A stretch of DNA of 64,000 bases from Acinetobacter calcoaceticus (GTDB lineage Bacteria > Pseudomonadota > Gammaproteobacteria > Pseudomonadales > Moraxellaceae): assembly GCF_900520355.1 (NCBI RefSeq), contig NZ_LS999521.1:2480001-2544000 (forward strand), in the 5' to 3' direction. The notes beneath the pieces were generated by a model. That model ran no database searches and was not told the DNA's origin. It saw only the letters and a list, made by a program, of their open reading frames with translations. Positions 749-50,115 of this stretch are shown in pieces (the stretch's first letter is position 1; each line of letters begins with the position of its first letter). Made by a program: the position numbers and the translations under genes.

Positions 749-1303
749 TTAAAACAACATTATTAAAAAATAATCTAACAACTTATCTCGCTCATCTACA
801 CTGTTTTTACTTAAAAGCTGAACCATTGCCCCATCAATCACGAACAAAAACATGTGGGCGTCTTTCATTGAAGCCGTAGTTTTGACGGTTAAAAGCAGTT
901 TATAAATTTCGTTGATTAGCCAAGTTCTATATTCAATCACCATGCTATAGGCTTTTGGGTAGAGCTTTTCAATTTCAAAAATTGCTTTAAAGGGCAAATG
1001 ATAAAAGCCATTTAAGTCGGCATGTAAAAGGTAAATCTGCTTGAGTTTATCAAGCACCATTTGTTCACGGTAAGAATTAAGAATTGAAAATACTTTTACT
1101 TTGAGCGCATCTTTTTGAAAAGTGAGACACATCTCGATCAGTCGTGCTTTTGAGTGAAAGTCGTTATAGAAAGTCGCTTTGGGAATTTTAGCTTCCGCAA
1201 TAATTCGGTCGACACCGACCTTATGAAAGCCATATTGATTAAATAAATCTTTTGCTGCGTGAAGCACTCGCAGCGCTCTAAATGAAGATTCTAAATTTTT
1301 CAT
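749..1303 (-). CDS. TetR/AcrR family regulator, paralog 1 of 3
   Basis: A 184-residue TetR-type repressor. The helix-turn-helix lies at about residues 10-55 and contains VGVDRIIAEAKIPKATFYNDFHSKARLIE, close to the family consensus. The rest is the helical ligand and dimer domain. Paralogs lie at 21311-21865 and 47597-48148 and share long blocks such as FLFVIDGAMVQLLS and LPFKAIFEIEK. All three are on the minus strand behind a short leader ORF and a C4-like RNA, so the gene is probably read from the promoter at 1813-1841. The ligand and target genes cannot be told from sequence; no obvious regulated partner is adjacent. Confidence 0.88.
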   Translation of the reverse strand: MKNLESSFRALRVLHAAKDLFNQYGFHKVGVDRIIAEAKIPKATFYNDFHSKARLIEMCLTFQKDALKVKVFSILNSYREQMVLDKLKQIYLLHADLNGFYHLPFKAIFEIEKLYPKAYSMVIEYRTWLINEIYKLLLTVKTTASMKDAHMFLFVIDGAMVQLLSKNSVDERDKLLDYFLIMLF

Positions 1304-1478: not shown

Positions 1479-1571
1479 CTAGAGTCGATTAAACCGTTTT
1501 ATAGACTGTTTAATTGGTATGGACGGAAAGATTTTGGCAAAGGCCAATAAATGAGAAGAATTAGTACGCAT
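1479..1571 (-). CDS. Leader ORF of TetR module 1 (30 aa)
   Basis: On the minus strand AGGAG lies 6 nt before an ATG that opens a 30-codon frame ending in TAG. The product contains SSHLLAFAKIFPS. At the same place modules 2 and 3 have 18-codon frames sharing a histidine-rich start and an A-K core (HYFLATFAKS, HYFLALDAKS). From memory the start and the GGAGCTGGCT ribosome-site context resemble the N-terminus of phage P4 Ash proteins (MHGYSHSAVAKS); this was not checked. It sits between the C4-like RNA and the TetR gene, so it may be the translated target through which the antisense RNA controls the operon. Confidence 0.5.
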   Translation of the reverse strand: MRTNSSHLLAFAKIFPSIPIKQSIKRFNRL

Positions 1572-1622
1572 AGCGGACTCCTTTGTTAACAAAAGAAATC
1601 CTACCGATCACTGCTAAATGAT

Positions 1623-1701
1623 GGTGGCAGGACGAAAGAGGGTTAGCAGACTGGCAACAAAGAAACCAGCACACCCGAAGGTGTCCCCCTTCCGCCCTAC
1701 C
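1623..1701 (-). ncRNA. C4-like antisense RNA, copy 1
   Basis: Read on the minus strand, GGTAGGGCGGAAGGGGG pairs with CCCTCTTTCGTCCTGCCACC into a long stem with a 3-nt bulge. Inside are a hairpin ACACC-UUCG-GGUGU and a hairpin CUGGU...GCCAG. Three stem pairs are G-U on the minus strand but would be A-C mismatches on the plus strand, which fixes the orientation. The junction segment GTCTGCTAA (1643-1651) is complementary to the upstream leader at 1774-1782 over 9 nt. The fold and the self-complementary leader match C4 antisense RNA of phages P1/P7; a large group of C4-like sRNAs is reported for A. baumannii. Confidence 0.78.
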
Positions 1702-1812
1702 GTAGAGAAAAAGGGGGCGAACGAGATCACGATACACAAAACAAGGCTTCGTATATCGTCTTTGTTAAATAGGGTCTGCTAAAACCCGCTAGCAATGTAG
1801 GCCAGCCCGCAA

Positions 1813-1841
1813 AGGATAGTATTCGCTTTTGTTGTCGTCAA
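1813..1841 (-). promoter_or_regulatory. Promoter of TetR module 1
   Basis: On the minus strand TTGACG and TATCCT are separated by 17 nt. The same arrangement, TTGAC(G/T)-N17-TAT(C/T)CT, occurs with identical spacing upstream of all four C4-like RNAs in the window. Confidence 0.7.
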
Positions 1842-2010
1842 GCGTGCGGAATGACAATCGTATTAAAGTAGAGCGGTTGAGTTCTAAATTATTTTAAAAA
1901 TTTAAAAAAATAATTGAATATTGATATATAGGAAGTACTTGTCTAGTTATAACAATTAAATATAGGCTTAGGAATAAATATAATCCTATTAATCTCTGCT
2001 AAATAGTTAT

Positions 2011-2089
2011 GGTGGCAGAACGAAAAAGAGTTAGCAGTCTGGTGCCAAAGAGACCAGCACATCCTAAGATGTCCTCTTTCCGTCCTACC
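2011..2089 (-). ncRNA. C4-like antisense RNA, copy 4 (solitary)
   Basis: This has the same fold as the other copies: outer stem GGTAGGACGGAAAGAG with CTCTTTTTCGTTCTGCCACC, hairpin ACATC-UUAG-GATGT (a compensated change relative to ACACC/GGTGT) and hairpin CTGGT...ACCAG. It begins about 9 nt after its -10 box and lacks the 110-nt leader of the other copies. No leader ORF or TetR gene of its own follows. Downstream it keeps a decayed target-like stretch (1995-2002 and TAATAGGATT) before copy 1's promoter. It may be a stand-alone regulator of its neighbour. Confidence 0.72.
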
Positions 2090-2097
2090 AGAAAGCA

Positions 2098-21310: not shown

Positions 21311-21865
21311 TCACTGCAATCCTATCAAAAAATACTCAAGCAGCCGCTCTCTTTCATCTGGTTTGTTTGGGTCTAAAAGCTGAACCATTGCCCCATCAAT
21401 CACAAACAAAAACATGTGGGCATCGGGTTTTAAAGCATTTGCATTGGTGGTTAAAAGCAACTTATAAATTTCATTAATCAGCCAGTTCCGATATTCAACT
21501 ACTGTCTGATAGGCCTTTGGATGTGTTTTCGCAATTTCAAAAATAGCCTTAAATGGCAAATGATAAAGCCCATCTAAGTCGGCATGTAAAAAGTAAATTT
21601 TGCGCAGTTTTTCGACTAGAGTTAATTCTTTTTGAATATAGATAATCGAAATGGCCTCTTGTTTAAGGCCATCTTTTTGAAAGGTTAAGCTCATTTCAAT
21701 AAGGCGTTCTTTTGAGTGAAAGTAATTATAAAACGTGGCTTTGGTAGTATTTGCCGACTCAATAATTCGGTCTACACCGACATTGTGAAAACCGTATTGA
21801 TTAAAAAGATATCTTGCTGAGTGAAGTACGCTTAAAGCACGAAATGGTAGGTCTGAATGTGGCAT
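21311..21865 (-). CDS. TetR/AcrR family regulator, paralog 2 of 3
   Basis: 184 residues, starting MPHSDLPFRALSVLHSARYLFNQYG, with the HTH at 10-55 (VGVDRIIESANTTKATFYNYFHSKERLIEM). An upstream in-frame codon would add 37 residues absent from paralog 1, so I use the ATG at 21865. The C-terminal domain is closely similar to paralog 1 (DAHMFLFVIDGAMVQLL). It lies downstream of leader ORF 22063-22119 and C4-like RNA copy 2, the intact form of the module. Target unknown. Confidence 0.88.
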   Translation of the reverse strand: MPHSDLPFRALSVLHSARYLFNQYGFHNVGVDRIIESANTTKATFYNYFHSKERLIEMSLTFQKDGLKQEAISIIYIQKELTLVEKLRKIYFLHADLDGLYHLPFKAIFEIAKTHPKAYQTVVEYRNWLINEIYKLLLTTNANALKPDAHMFLFVIDGAMVQLLDPNKPDERERLLEYFLIGLQ

Positions 21866-22062
21866 AGTTTTACCGTTATAAAAAATTATTGTTGTATATA
21901 AATGAGATATAAAAACCGCTGCCGTTTTTTGGGAGAAAAAAGGCATAGCAAAGCCCATAAAGACTGTGCTTGGCACATCTCAAGTTTTATTGTTGATTAA
22001 GTTTTTAGACAAAATGATTTAAAGTCTGAAAAGCCTAATAGCCATCAAACTGCTTTAAAATT

Positions 22063-22119
22063 TTAAGTTGTGTCGTTATAGCTTTTGGCAAAGGTTGCCA
22101 AGAAATAATGGATGTGCAA
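22063..22119 (-). CDS. Leader ORF of TetR module 2 (18 aa)
   Basis: AAAGGAG, then 6 nt, then TTG opens LHIHYFLATFAKSYNDTT, ending in TAA. Module 3 has the same frame with three substitutions. The sequence just upstream (TGGCAGAAC, complement of 22141-22149) is complementary to the 3' arm of the C4-like RNA, so the RNA could mask this ribosome site. Confidence 0.5.
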   Translation of the reverse strand: MHIHYFLATFAKSYNDTT

Positions 22120-22165
22120 AGCCAGCTCCTTTGTAATTGGAGTTCTGCCAGACATTATAAATTAT

Positions 22166-22241
22166 GGTGGCAGAACGGAAGTGGGTTCGCAGACTGGTCA
22201 CACAACCAGCACACCCGAGGGTGTCCCACTCCCGTCCTACC
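22166..22241 (-). ncRNA. C4-like antisense RNA, copy 2
   Basis: On the minus strand GGTAGGACGGGAGTGGG pairs throughout with CCCACTTCCGTTCTGCCACC apart from a 3-nt bulge. The hairpins are ACACC-CUCG-GGUGU and CUGGU-UGUGUG-ACCAG. Relative to copy 1 the stem has a compensated change (G-U to U-A). The junction segment GTCTGCGAA (22186-22194) is complementary over 8 nt to the leader at 22314-22321. Confidence 0.8.
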
Positions 22242-22352
22242 GCAACGGGAGGGAACGAGATGGCCGCACAAAATTATTCCTCAGAGAAATAATCCTGATA
22301 CGGGTGTGAATCGGTCTGCGACAACCGACTGGCAATGTAGGCCAGCAGGCAA

Positions 22353-22381
22353 AGAATAGTATTCAACCCTCTTTCAGTCAA
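22353..22381 (-). promoter_or_regulatory. Promoter of TetR module 2
   Basis: TTGACT-N17-TATTCT on the minus strand. The flank upstream of it (about 22385-22465) is also nearly identical to that of module 3. Confidence 0.7.
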
Positions 22382-47596: not shown

Positions 47597-48148
47597 TTAA
47601 ACACCCCTCAAAAAACAATCCAACACCCTTTCCCTCTGGTCCGCCCCATCTGAACTTAAAAGCTCAATAATTGCCCCTTCAATCATATATAAAAATAGTT
47701 TGGCATCTTGAAAGGAAGCATCGGTTTTTAGGTTTATAAGCTGGCTATAGATTTCATTGATTATCCACGTCCGGTATTTAATTGCAACTTGATAGGCTTT
47801 TGGATAGGTCAGTTTCGTTTCAAAAATTGCTTTAAATAGTAAATAGTACAGTCCTTCTAAATCTGTATGTAAGAAATAGAGCTTCTTAATCTTATCAACC
47901 ACATTGGTGTTGCAGTCATACTCAGCAATTGAAACCACTTTTTCTTTTAAACGTTCTTTTTGCACAATCAGACAGATTTCAACAAACCGCTCTTTCGAGT
48001 GAAAGTAGTTATAAAAAGTCGCTTTGGGAATTTCACACTCTTTCACGATTCGATCGATTCCAACAACATGAAATCCGCGATGATGAAATAAATCAATCGA
48101 CTTATTGATGACTTGTATGGCACGTGTTGGAAGAACTAACTTTGGCAT
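47597..48148 (-). CDS. TetR/AcrR family regulator, paralog 3 of 3
   Basis: 183 residues from the ATG at 48148, starting MPKLVLPTRAIQVINKSIDLFHHRGF. HTH VVGIDRIVKECEIPKATFYNYFHSKERFVEI. It diverges more from paralogs 1 and 2 than they do from each other (for example LFLYMIEGAIIELLSSDGADQRE at the end). An upstream extension to 48244 is rejected by comparison with paralog 1. Its module is cut by an insertion sequence between the promoter and the RNA, so expression is probably reduced or altered. Confidence 0.87.
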   Translation of the reverse strand: MPKLVLPTRAIQVINKSIDLFHHRGFHVVGIDRIVKECEIPKATFYNYFHSKERFVEICLIVQKERLKEKVVSIAEYDCNTNVVDKIKKLYFLHTDLEGLYYLLFKAIFETKLTYPKAYQVAIKYRTWIINEIYSQLINLKTDASFQDAKLFLYMIEGAIIELLSSDGADQRERVLDCFLRGV

Positions 48149-48327
48149 AGTTTTACCGTTATAAAAATTATTGTTGTTTCTAAATGAGATACTTTTTTGG
48201 GAGAAAAAAAGGCACAGCAAAGTCGTAAAGACTATGCGTAGCACATCTCAAGTTTGTTATTGCTAAGTTTTAAGTAAAAATGACTTAAAGCCTGAAAACC
48301 TTAGGGTGATTAAGCTGCTTTAATTTT

Positions 48328-48384
48328 TTAAGCTGTGTCGTTATAGCTTTTGGCATCGAGAGCCAAGAAATAATGGATGTGCAA
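48328..48384 (-). CDS. Leader ORF of TetR module 3 (18 aa)
   Basis: AAAGGAG, 6 nt, then TTG opens LHIHYFLALDAKSYNDTA and TAA, differing from module 2 at three residues. The reading frame and ribosome site are conserved, which suggests selection on translation. Confidence 0.5.
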   Translation of the reverse strand: MHIHYFLALDAKSYNDTA

Positions 48385-48552
48385 AGCCAACTCCTTTTTA
48401 TTGGGAGTTCTGCCAGACATTTAAATTATGGTGGCAGAACGAAAGAGGGTTGACGAACTGGTCACACGAGGCCAGCACACCCGAAGGTGTCCCCCTTCCG
48501 TCCTGAACTGCACCCCATAAGTTAGACTCTTTAAACTTATAAGGTGTGTCCT

Positions 48553-49062
48553 ATGCCAGTTCCAAAGCATTCAAAAGAGTTAAAACTAAAAGTAATTCAG
48601 GCTTATTTAGATGGGAGTAAAGGCTATAAAATTCTTTCCAAAGAGTTTAATGTAGATCTCCAAACCATCCGGTTATGGATTGAAAACTATAAAGCACATG
48701 GTACTGATGGGCTTAATGTTAAAATTAAAAAGACTTATTATTCTCCAGAATTTAAAATCAATGCGATACAAATGCTTCTTGATAAGATACCCGTAAGAGA
48801 AGTAAGAAGACGATTAAATCTGAGCGGGACGTCAATTTTAAGAAGATGGTTAGCTCAGTATCATAAAGAAGGGATTGCTGGTTTTAATACTAAACGGACT
48901 TATACCAATATGACTAGGCAAGATAAAATCAAAGTAGTTAAGCCAATCAGAGATGATAAAGACAAGTCTCAACAAGAACTCATTGATGAGGTTACAGCTT
49001 TGCGCGCAGAGGTCGCTTTCTTAAAAAAGCTAAAAGCCTTAAAACTGAAGCAGCGTACTTAA
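48553..49062 (+). CDS. IS3-family transposase OrfA
   Basis: 169 residues. Two helix-turn-helix units (YKILSKEFNVDLQTIRLWIENY; PVREVRRRLNLSGTSILRRWLAQY) and a C-terminal leucine-zipper-like helix (QQELIDEVTALRAEVAFLKK). The ATG at 48553 is used; a GTG three codons earlier is an alternative. Near the end, TTA AAA AAG at 49021-49029 contains the slippery heptamer A-AAA-AAG for -1 frameshifting into OrfB. Confidence 0.9.
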   Translation: MPVPKHSKELKLKVIQAYLDGSKGYKILSKEFNVDLQTIRLWIENYKAHGTDGLNVKIKKTYYSPEFKINAIQMLLDKIPVREVRRRLNLSGTSILRRWLAQYHKEGIAGFNTKRTYTNMTRQDKIKVVKPIRDDKDKSQQELIDEVTALRAEVAFLKKLKALKLKQRT

Positions 49063-49121
49063 GTTCAATTTCTACCGCAGACAGTGTTCAGGTTGTTTCA
49101 GAATTAAGGCATATCTATCCA

Positions 49122-49937
49122 TTGAAACTATTACTCGGTATCGCGAAGATAGCCCGTAGTACTTATTTCTACCACATGAAAGCTCTACGCTCCAATGATA
49201 AATATACTGAGCTAAAACAAAATATTAAGTCGATATATCACAAGCACAAAGGATGTTACGGCTATCGTAGAATTACTCTTGCTTTGAAAAGTGCAGGAAT
49301 AATGATTAACCATAAATGCGTATATCGCCTCATGAAAACTATGGGACTCAAATCAAGGATCAGAGCACTAAAATATCGCTCATATAAAAGTGGTTGTGTC
49401 GGGATGGTGGCTGATAACATTTTACAACGGCAATTTAAAGCAAATCGGCCAAATCAGAAATGGGCAACTGATGTAACGGAATTTAATGTGAATGGTGAAA
49501 AACTTTACCTATCCCCAATTATAGATTTATTTAATGGGGAAATTATTACGTTCCGAATCCAACGCAAACTCAATTATGAGTTAGTAAAAGAGATGCTCAT
49601 TCATGCTTTGGCTAAACTTAAGCGACATGAAAAACCAATTCTCCATTCCGATCAAGGATGGCAATATCAAATGGCCCATTACCAGCAGCAATTAAAGCAA
49701 CATGGTTTAATTCAGAGTATGTCTCGTAAGGGAAATTGTTTGGATAATGCTGTAATAGAAAGCTTCTTTGGAATATTAAAATCGGAATGCTTTCATGGTG
49801 AAAAATTTCAATCAATTGATGAATTAGAGAAAACTGTAAAAGAGTACATTCATTATTATAATCATGAGAGAATCAAGGTGAAGCTACAAGGTTTATCCCC
49901 TGTACAATATAGAAATCAGTTTTTAAAAACTGCTTAA
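49122..49937 (+). CDS. IS3-family transposase OrfB (DDE integrase)
   Basis: 271 residues if started at TTG. The frame is open back to about 49029, so the real enzyme is most likely an OrfAB fusion made by -1 frameshifting at 49023-49029. Features are HTH_21-like KHKGCYGYRRITLALKSAGI and the rve catalytic core with the DDE triad in WATDVTEF, LHSDQGWQYQ and NAVIESFFGILKSE. The C-terminal YYNHERIKVKLQGLSPVQYR is typical of IS3. Confidence 0.92.
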   Translation: MKLLLGIAKIARSTYFYHMKALRSNDKYTELKQNIKSIYHKHKGCYGYRRITLALKSAGIMINHKCVYRLMKTMGLKSRIRALKYRSYKSGCVGMVADNILQRQFKANRPNQKWATDVTEFNVNGEKLYLSPIIDLFNGEIITFRIQRKLNYELVKEMLIHALAKLKRHEKPILHSDQGWQYQMAHYQQQLKQHGLIQSMSRKGNCLDNAVIESFFGILKSECFHGEKFQSIDELEKTVKEYIHYYNHERIKVKLQGLSPVQYRNQFLKTA

Positions 49938-50086
49938 TTAACTGTCCAACTTTATGGGGTCAGATCATCCTACCGCTACGAGAGGGAGACGAAGAGCTGC
50001 ACAAAACTATCCCTCAGAAGGAATAATTCTGATACTCGTGTGAAAACGGTTCGTCAAAACCGACTGGCAATGTGGCCAGCAGGCAA

Positions 50087-50115
50087 AGGATAGTGTTCAA
50101 CCCTTTTGCAGTCAA
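50087..50115 (-). promoter_or_regulatory. Promoter of TetR module 3
   Basis: TTGACT-N17-TATCCT on the minus strand. The IS now separates it from most of the RNA and from the TetR gene. Confidence 0.7.

Follow-up and report, generated by a model that had tools for sequence, protein, structure and literature searches.

Co-varying antisense and target segments in C4 RNA modules that precede TetR-type regulators in Acinetobacter

Three copies of a C4-like RNA lie within a 64,000-nucleotide stretch of the Acinetobacter calcoaceticus genome (NZ_LS999521.1, positions 2,480,001 to 2,544,000; the window), and a preliminary description reported that an unpaired junction segment in each is complementary to the copy's own leader, even though the sequence differs from copy to copy. 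What does this complementarity do, and how could RNAs so alike be told apart in one cell? Below, G000 is the genome of the window and L numbers are labels of individual modules or loci.

Anatomy of the C4 modules

The window contains four C4 antisense RNAs (RF01695, threshold 45 bits), all on the minus strand and scoring between 50.3 and 75.6 bits. A full module consists, in transcription order, of a sigma-70-like promoter, a hairpin, a leader with two target segments (a1 and b1), the C4 RNA and a cargo gene. The antisense segments occupy the junction of the C4 fold (a′) and the loop of its third stem (b′). Some modules have further targets, a2 and b2, between the C4 RNA and the cargo, with b2 lying over the Shine–Dalgarno sequence of a short open reading frame (ORF).

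In copy 1, on the minus strand like all module features below, the sigma-70-like promoter (TTGACG, 17 nt, TATCCT; 1813..1841) has an architecture common to all 18 G000 modules tested of the 20 present, each with the 17-nt spacing. The 5′ hairpin of the leader (1789..1805) corresponds to Region 1 of Weiss et al., whose loop motif is described in that paper (PMC5320573); such hairpins start about nine bases past the −10 box, or five in L009. There follow target a1, TTAGCAGAC (1774..1782), target b1, AACAAAGA (1759..1766), and the C4 RNA itself (1620..1707; 75.6 bits), with b′, TCTTTGTT, at 1656..1663 and a′, GTCTGCTAA, at 1643..1651. Downstream target a2 (TTAGCAG) lies at 1611..1617, and b2 (AACAAAG; 1581..1587) overlaps the Shine–Dalgarno sequence AAGGAG (1578–1583) of a 30-aa ORF (1479..1571). 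A TetR-family regulator of 184 aa (PF00440) is encoded at 749..1303. Upstream of copy 1 is an extra C4 RNA (2008..2095; 56.3 bits) that has no leader and whose b′ has no match of at least 6 nt in its own flanks.

Copy 2 comprises a promoter (22353..22381), a1, TCGCAGAC (22314..22321), b1, TCACAC (22304..22309), a C4 RNA (22163..22247; 61.7 bits) with a′, GTCTGCGAA, at 22186–22194 and b′ at 22198–22203, an 18-aa ORF with a TTG start and no a2 (22063..22119), and a TetR-family gene (21311..21976; PF00440). Copy 3 has its promoter at 50087..50115, a1, TTGACGAAC, at 50049..50057 and b1, TCACACGAG, at 50035..50043; an insertion then cuts the 5′ end of its C4 RNA (48427..48512; 50.3 bits), in which a′, GTTCGTCAA, spans 48450–48458 and b′ 48462–48470. 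An 18-aa ORF (48328..48384) and a TetR-family gene (47597..48244; PF00440) follow. Read on the minus strand, all three antisense–leader pairs are complementary as first described. Beyond that description, b′ also pairs with the leader, and in copy 1 both a′ and b′ also match a2 and b2 over the Shine–Dalgarno sequence.

The short ORFs, which have only a moderate coding signal, define two classes: type A, of about 30 residues (copy 1), and type B, of 18 residues with a TTG start (copies 2 and 3). Of 47 TetR-linked modules, 38 are type A (20) or type B (18), and 9 are neither. All 20 type A modules have a1, b1, a2 and b2, the last two over the ribosome-binding site as in copy 1. The type B modules have a1 in 18 of 18, b1 in 16 and a b2-like match in three; a2 is absent from all 18, as from copies 2 and 3. 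In energy comparisons of G000 modules, the own downstream region ranked first for the six with a type A-like ORF and for none of the other twelve.

Two further elements were noticed. In copy 1, a segment at 1598–1605 could form a helix with the C4 stem's 3′ strand, as could segments downstream of other C4 RNAs; over 155 modules this helix averages 8.95 bp in the own combination and 7.09 bp after permutation, and it may constitute an anti-C4 hairpin. By eye, an inverted repeat, GTCA-N11-TGAC, overlaps the −35 box in the promoters of copies 1–3, L007, L011 and L013 and is near-complete in those of L003 and L017; it is a possible operator.

Distribution and sampling

G000 (3.93 Mb, one contig) carries 20 C4 RNAs. 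Among Acinetobacter genomes 82 of 99 have a C4 match, ten of them with 15 to 26 copies and all others with at most 8; among sampled genomes of the class outside the genus, 17 of 273 have one. The five best plasmid-collection matches to the copy 1 region are all from Acinetobacter baumannii (80.6 to 83.5% identity). We compiled 155 modules: the 20 of G000, 109 found in 52 further Acinetobacter genomes, and 26 that come from 17 non-Acinetobacter genomes. These are the best-scoring among the matches listed, and the genus total is larger. Nine modules with no leader in reach (L012, L015–L020, L073 and L122) were set aside, giving 146 modules, 145 of them distinct; the alignment test also left out L100, L125 and L147, which have short flanks, and so covers 143 of 155. 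Two kinds of database entry merit comment: NZ_CP064203.1, listed as a plasmid in PLSDB, is 3.97 Mb long and chromosome-like, and contigs labelled ‘Acinetobacter phage MD-2021a’ (CAKLQF/CAKLQH), some with several matching places, may be bacterial.

Antisense and target segments change together

Among the matches listed, a′ matches its own leader over at least 7 contiguous Watson–Crick bases in 141 of 145 distinct modules; the 17,282 cross pairs in which a′ differs reach this in 2.3%. Segment b′ matches the own leader in 118 of 145 (7.3% of cross pairs of different sequence), and the downstream region is matched by a′ in 117 and by b′ in 105 (1.3% and 7.2% of cross pairs). None of 10,000 permutations equalled any of the four observed match sums (a1, b1, a2 and b2). 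In an alignment made blind to pairing, a1 and a′ are Watson–Crick complementary in 98.2% of 1001 cells (seven positions, 143 modules), compared with at most 33% when one segment is slid and 72.6% in the best of 1000 row permutations. The corresponding values for a2 and a′ are 90.5%, at most 29% and 71.3%. Every one of the seven a′ positions shows at least two Watson–Crick pair types, one position by virtue of a single sequence. Outside the genus a1 is kept in 23 of 26 modules and a2 in 24 of 26, across 23 different a′ cores, with cross matches in 16 of 644 combinations. Complementarity is thus retained while the sequences differ, as had been proposed from the window; the opposite outcome, loop and leader varying independently in a wide sample, was not found. 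RNA–RNA pairing is supported because antisense and target co-vary so widely.

The clearest case is a pair of modules, L106 and L108, from two genomes of a set with one genome per species. Over the leader, the C4 RNA and 55 downstream bases (274 nt) they are 97.1% identical, and each of a1, a′ and a2 differs by two adjacent bases; the only further difference is a one-base indel next to a2. An identical address change separates L102 from L109, together with two other substitutions. All six changed bases are transitions, so wobble pairs could have bridged the steps. In all, 67 module pairs are at least 80% identical and have different a′; 35 keep an exact 7-mer match to a1 on both sides and 36 one to a2. 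Others include the GTCTGCGAA and GTCCGCGAA classes, whose complementarity to the leader stops one base early at one end and extends further at the other. Shared ancestry as the cause of the match can be rejected, because the changes come as complementary pairs on near-identical modules. These natural modules, with joint change of leader, antisense and downstream segment, form an unusually clean record of a change in antisense specificity.

Co-variation of this kind is equally compatible with pairing inside a single transcript and with pairing between two RNAs. Leader and antisense segment might meet in a pseudoknot or other long-range fold, which would guide how the C4 RNA folds or is released by RNase P and would carry no address; both partners lie on one predicted transcript, and the additional helix that joins the 3′ strand of C4 to its downstream segment exceeds its length in shuffles. 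We nevertheless consider this unlikely. The record of the phage P1 immI operon annotates a1, b1, a2 and b2, in the same order around c4 as here, as target sites of the C4 RNA. The a′ and b′ segments of type A modules each match both the leader and the downstream region, and one RNA cannot pair with the two simultaneously. Leaderless C4 genes also exist, namely that at 2008–2095 and six truncated ones described in A. baumannii AB5075 (available part of PMC5320573).

A probable two-part address

Within G000 the a′ segment is far from unique, CTGCTAA and CTGTCAA each serving as the core of seven RNAs. We calculated two-site duplex energies for 18 of the 20 modules; L012 (no leader) and L020 (leader unlike the motif) were left out, and the leader start of L009 was set by hand. 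The L020 leader (locus L185) does contain TTGACAGAC. These energies disregard the folding of each RNA and serve for ranking only. Own pairs average −22.6 kcal/mol and cross pairs −13.6 kcal/mol. By row the own leader always ranks first (18 of 18), and by column it does so in 16 of 18; the own-pair sum of −407.3 lies below the minimum of −322.6 reached in 100,000 permutations.

The junction had been credited with separate specificities, and here the result is mixed. Taken alone, a′ singles out the own leader in 3 of 18 modules, so its sufficiency is rejected; b′ alone does so in 12 of 18, and the two together in 18 of 18. The median gap to the nearest competitor is then 3.6 kcal/mol, with four gaps of at most 1.1. 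Among the three window copies, predicted cross-pairing is weak (own −21.7, −21.9 and −26.9 kcal/mol; cross −7.4 to −15.1). Separation is graded rather than strict across the genome, the copy 1 RNA on the L015 leader being predicted only 1.1 kcal/mol worse than on its own. Copy 3, singled out as unlikely to cross-react, is indeed distinct from copies 1 and 2, and less strictly so from L014, on whose leader its RNA is predicted to be 5.7 kcal/mol worse.

Cargo genes

A TetR gene of one family lies downstream of 16 of the 20 C4 RNAs in G000; there are 15 such genes because copy 1 and the adjoining extra C4 RNA share one. With the copy 1 TetR as the sole query, the 15 paralogues are 51–100% identical and the next TetR 31%, and all 15 sit downstream of a C4 RNA. 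Among the matches listed, and with the three window TetRs as queries, ten genomes contribute 64 modules, of which 47 have a family member within 1.9 kb downstream, and none of 65 modules from 43 other Acinetobacter genomes does within that distance; the ten genomes are those with at least 15 C4 copies. The four C4 RNAs of G000 with no TetR after them count against an explanation in terms of TetR locks. Three of these modules (L004, L016 and L020) lead into related ORFs of 87–94 aa with lipoprotein-like starts and the fourth into a 100-aa ORF; of 15 modules inspected by eye in other genomes, several have lipoprotein-like or exported proteins. The setting of C4 modules before one distinct TetR family in this genome appears to be new. 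Because nearly all the RNAs match their own leaders and most precede one TetR family, the roughly twenty copies look like individually addressed locks on TetR regulators.

The preliminary description had instead likened the separate specificities to incompatibility or immunity groups, in which resident C4 RNAs would silence incoming phages that bear matching targets. This suits the phage relatives, C4 being described as the immunity RNA of P1 and P7 (P1 record; PMC5320573, in the part available), and coordinated address switches in near-identical modules are what immunity groups would be expected to produce. Among the matches listed, 27 of 129 Acinetobacter modules have the phage-like layout of a first ORF of at least 60 aa, and 7 of the 27 have the CTGCTAA or CTGTCAA core in common with short-ORF modules. 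The other 20, however, use a′ cores other than these two, which dominate the short-ORF modules (80 of 99), and the window copies lead into TetR genes. A Pfam comparison of ten ORFs of the window gave no phage family; one ORF proved to be the copy 3 transposase, and three were without any match. The Pfam-matched neighbours of the window modules are DnaJ, HD-domain and DUF2147 proteins. With TetR cargo and no phage family among these ORFs, gene control is the likelier role, in the form of address-coded silencing of regulators; immunity is an improbable one here.

Relation to known C4 systems

P1 provides a close anatomical parallel, with its C4 fold, a1 and b1 in the leader, and a2 and b2 before the first ORF; its a1/a2 letters, TTGACAG, are those of one class found here. 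The comparison with P1 and P7 is drawn from the P1 record. Where those phages have icd/ant as cargo, the present modules carry a TetR regulator or a lipoprotein-like ORF; no icd/ant was found downstream of the window copies, where the genes encode TetR_N proteins. The present modules further differ in that about twenty copies with different addresses share a genome and in that one subclass has lost a2. Phage P4 CI RNA is a processed antisense RNA that pairs with its own leader and ends transcription early. P4 CI immunity is what we take to be the closest model for the leader-only type B modules.

RNAs of the same kind have been described in A. baumannii AB5075 as 21 Group 1 C4-like sRNAs (Weiss et al. 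2016, PMC5320573). According to the available part of that paper they have a Region 1 hairpin with a CUACAUU or CACAUU loop, regarded as perhaps auxiliary, and are processed at GGW; processing of RNase P type was deduced from RNA-seq, and the processed C4 part is the more abundant. By eye, the order of the sRNAs on the AB5075 map resembles that of the G000 copies. Neither pairing with the own leader nor a link to TetR was found in the same part of the paper; in the main text ‘tetr’ occurs once and was taken as ‘tetraloop’ in a figure legend. Its authors favoured a role in which the RNAs regulate unlinked host mRNAs in trans; that the RNAs here act chiefly in this way, with an auxiliary leader, draws on the variable a′ loop and the abundant processed C4 part (PMC5320573, same part) and is very hard to credit when the own leader is the best partner in 18 of 18 modules and 141 of 145 have a match to a1 of 7 nt or more. 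To judge by its name, the c4-a1b1 motif (Weinberg et al. 2010) is what C4 RNAs target in the leader; the available part of that paper (PMC2864571) tabulates it for gamma-Proteobacteria and phages and gives no host operons.

A candidate lock on TetR regulators

Building on the observed anatomy, co-variation and linkage, we think it probable that these are self-addressed, phage-related C4 cassettes that pair through two segments with their own operon and act as a lock holding each TetR regulator OFF. The C4 RNA would be cut from the transcript and then pair through a′ and b′ with the targets of its own operon. In type A modules this pairing would also cover the ribosome-binding site of the short ORF; in type B modules the leader target alone would bring about an early end of transcription or destabilize the RNA before the cargo. 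The retention of leader pairing alone in type B points to a control that precedes translation of the cargo, through early termination or RNA decay. The two-part sequence would serve as the address by which some twenty RNAs stay separate within a single cell. Action in trans, silencing and the OFF lock are what we infer from sequence. One consideration counts against this reading: the antisense RNA and its cargo have one promoter in common, and an operon in the ON state would be expected to produce more of its own repressor, which makes a lasting ON state hard to account for.

Probable link to the opaque/translucent switch

A. baumannii, too, is known to have many similar TetR proteins in a single genome: expression of any of 11 such TetR-type regulators (TTTRs) makes opaque cells translucent, and the family includes one pseudogene (Perez-Varela et al. 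2022, PMC9802203). As described in the available part of that paper, four TTTRs are activated by chance and in differing combinations, the state of each is reported by promoter fusions on a plasmid, and autoregulation was absent for the three tested. We read the last two observations together as suggesting a trans-acting factor. The G000 family has the TTTR hallmark of about a dozen close members, its 15 paralogues standing clear of the next TetR.

Position agrees. We compared the 12 TTTR locus tags (PMC9802203, part available) with the 21 AB5075 sRNAs (PMC5320573, likewise), counting the cluster 066–069 once. With a fitted scale of 1.002 kb per tag, the tags average 10.8 kb from C4-like sRNA loci, and no random tag set among 20,000, given the same fit, came equally close. 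Without fitting, at 1.017 kb per tag, distances range from 7 to 47 kb (mean about 25 kb), and each of two pairs of tags shares a single locus, which counts against the match. A. baumannii NZ_CP064203.1 has 19 C4 RNAs and 15 TetRs at 47–75% identity, the next being at most 34% among long matches; a C4 RNA lies just upstream of 14 of the 15, and one has no C4 call upstream. From position and family size, the C4-linked TetRs of G000 are very probably the regulators of the A. baumannii virulent-opaque/translucent switch. Among the open-licence papers listed, none joins C4-like RNAs to these regulators. The main text of PMC9802203 does not use ‘antisense’ or ‘phage’, and SrvS is the only sRNA discussed in the part available.

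Tentatively, then, the ON and OFF states of the A. baumannii switch regulators, which arise by chance and in combinations, may be set by a phage-derived antisense network with two-part addresses, a possibility that we put forward without holding it to be the more probable outcome: each C4 RNA would be the trans-acting lock on its own TetR operon, graded cross-talk would couple certain regulators, and the leader-only class would end transcription early. If so, two published puzzles would merge, the role of C4-like RNAs and the silence and variable activation of the TetR switch regulators, and the sequences would predict, pair by pair, which RNA silences which operon and which pairs cross-talk.

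SrvS, an sRNA known to raise switching, was considered as a decoy and found unsupported, since neither a′ nor b′ matches it significantly. As an approximation to SrvS, the 110 nt that precede aadB on p1AB5075 were compared with all 20 a′ and b′ segments of G000; of 300 single-base shuffles, 11% reached the mean b′ match, 39% the mean a′ match and 8.7% the three b′ matches of at least 7 nt.

An IS3-like element inserted in C4 genes

The insertion in copy 3 (48504..49967) lies between leader and C4 RNA and is flanked by TCC on either side; its 172-aa ORF matches NF033516 (IS3) below the cut-off. This 1464-bp IS3-like element interrupts C4 genes at one and the same nucleotide position, always in one orientation, at all 12 places found in four genomes (G000, 6; G004, 3; G408, 2; G381, 1), corresponding to loci L182–L187, L190, L191, L194, L198, L201 and L203. 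Its 3-bp flanks comprise three sequences and are equal on both sides in 11 of 12 cases, so the insertions look independent. Related ends, with one or two mismatches, occur at 13 places in five other genomes (G064, G374, G048, G097 and G383), all outside C4 genes; by eye, several of these sites resemble terminator hairpins.
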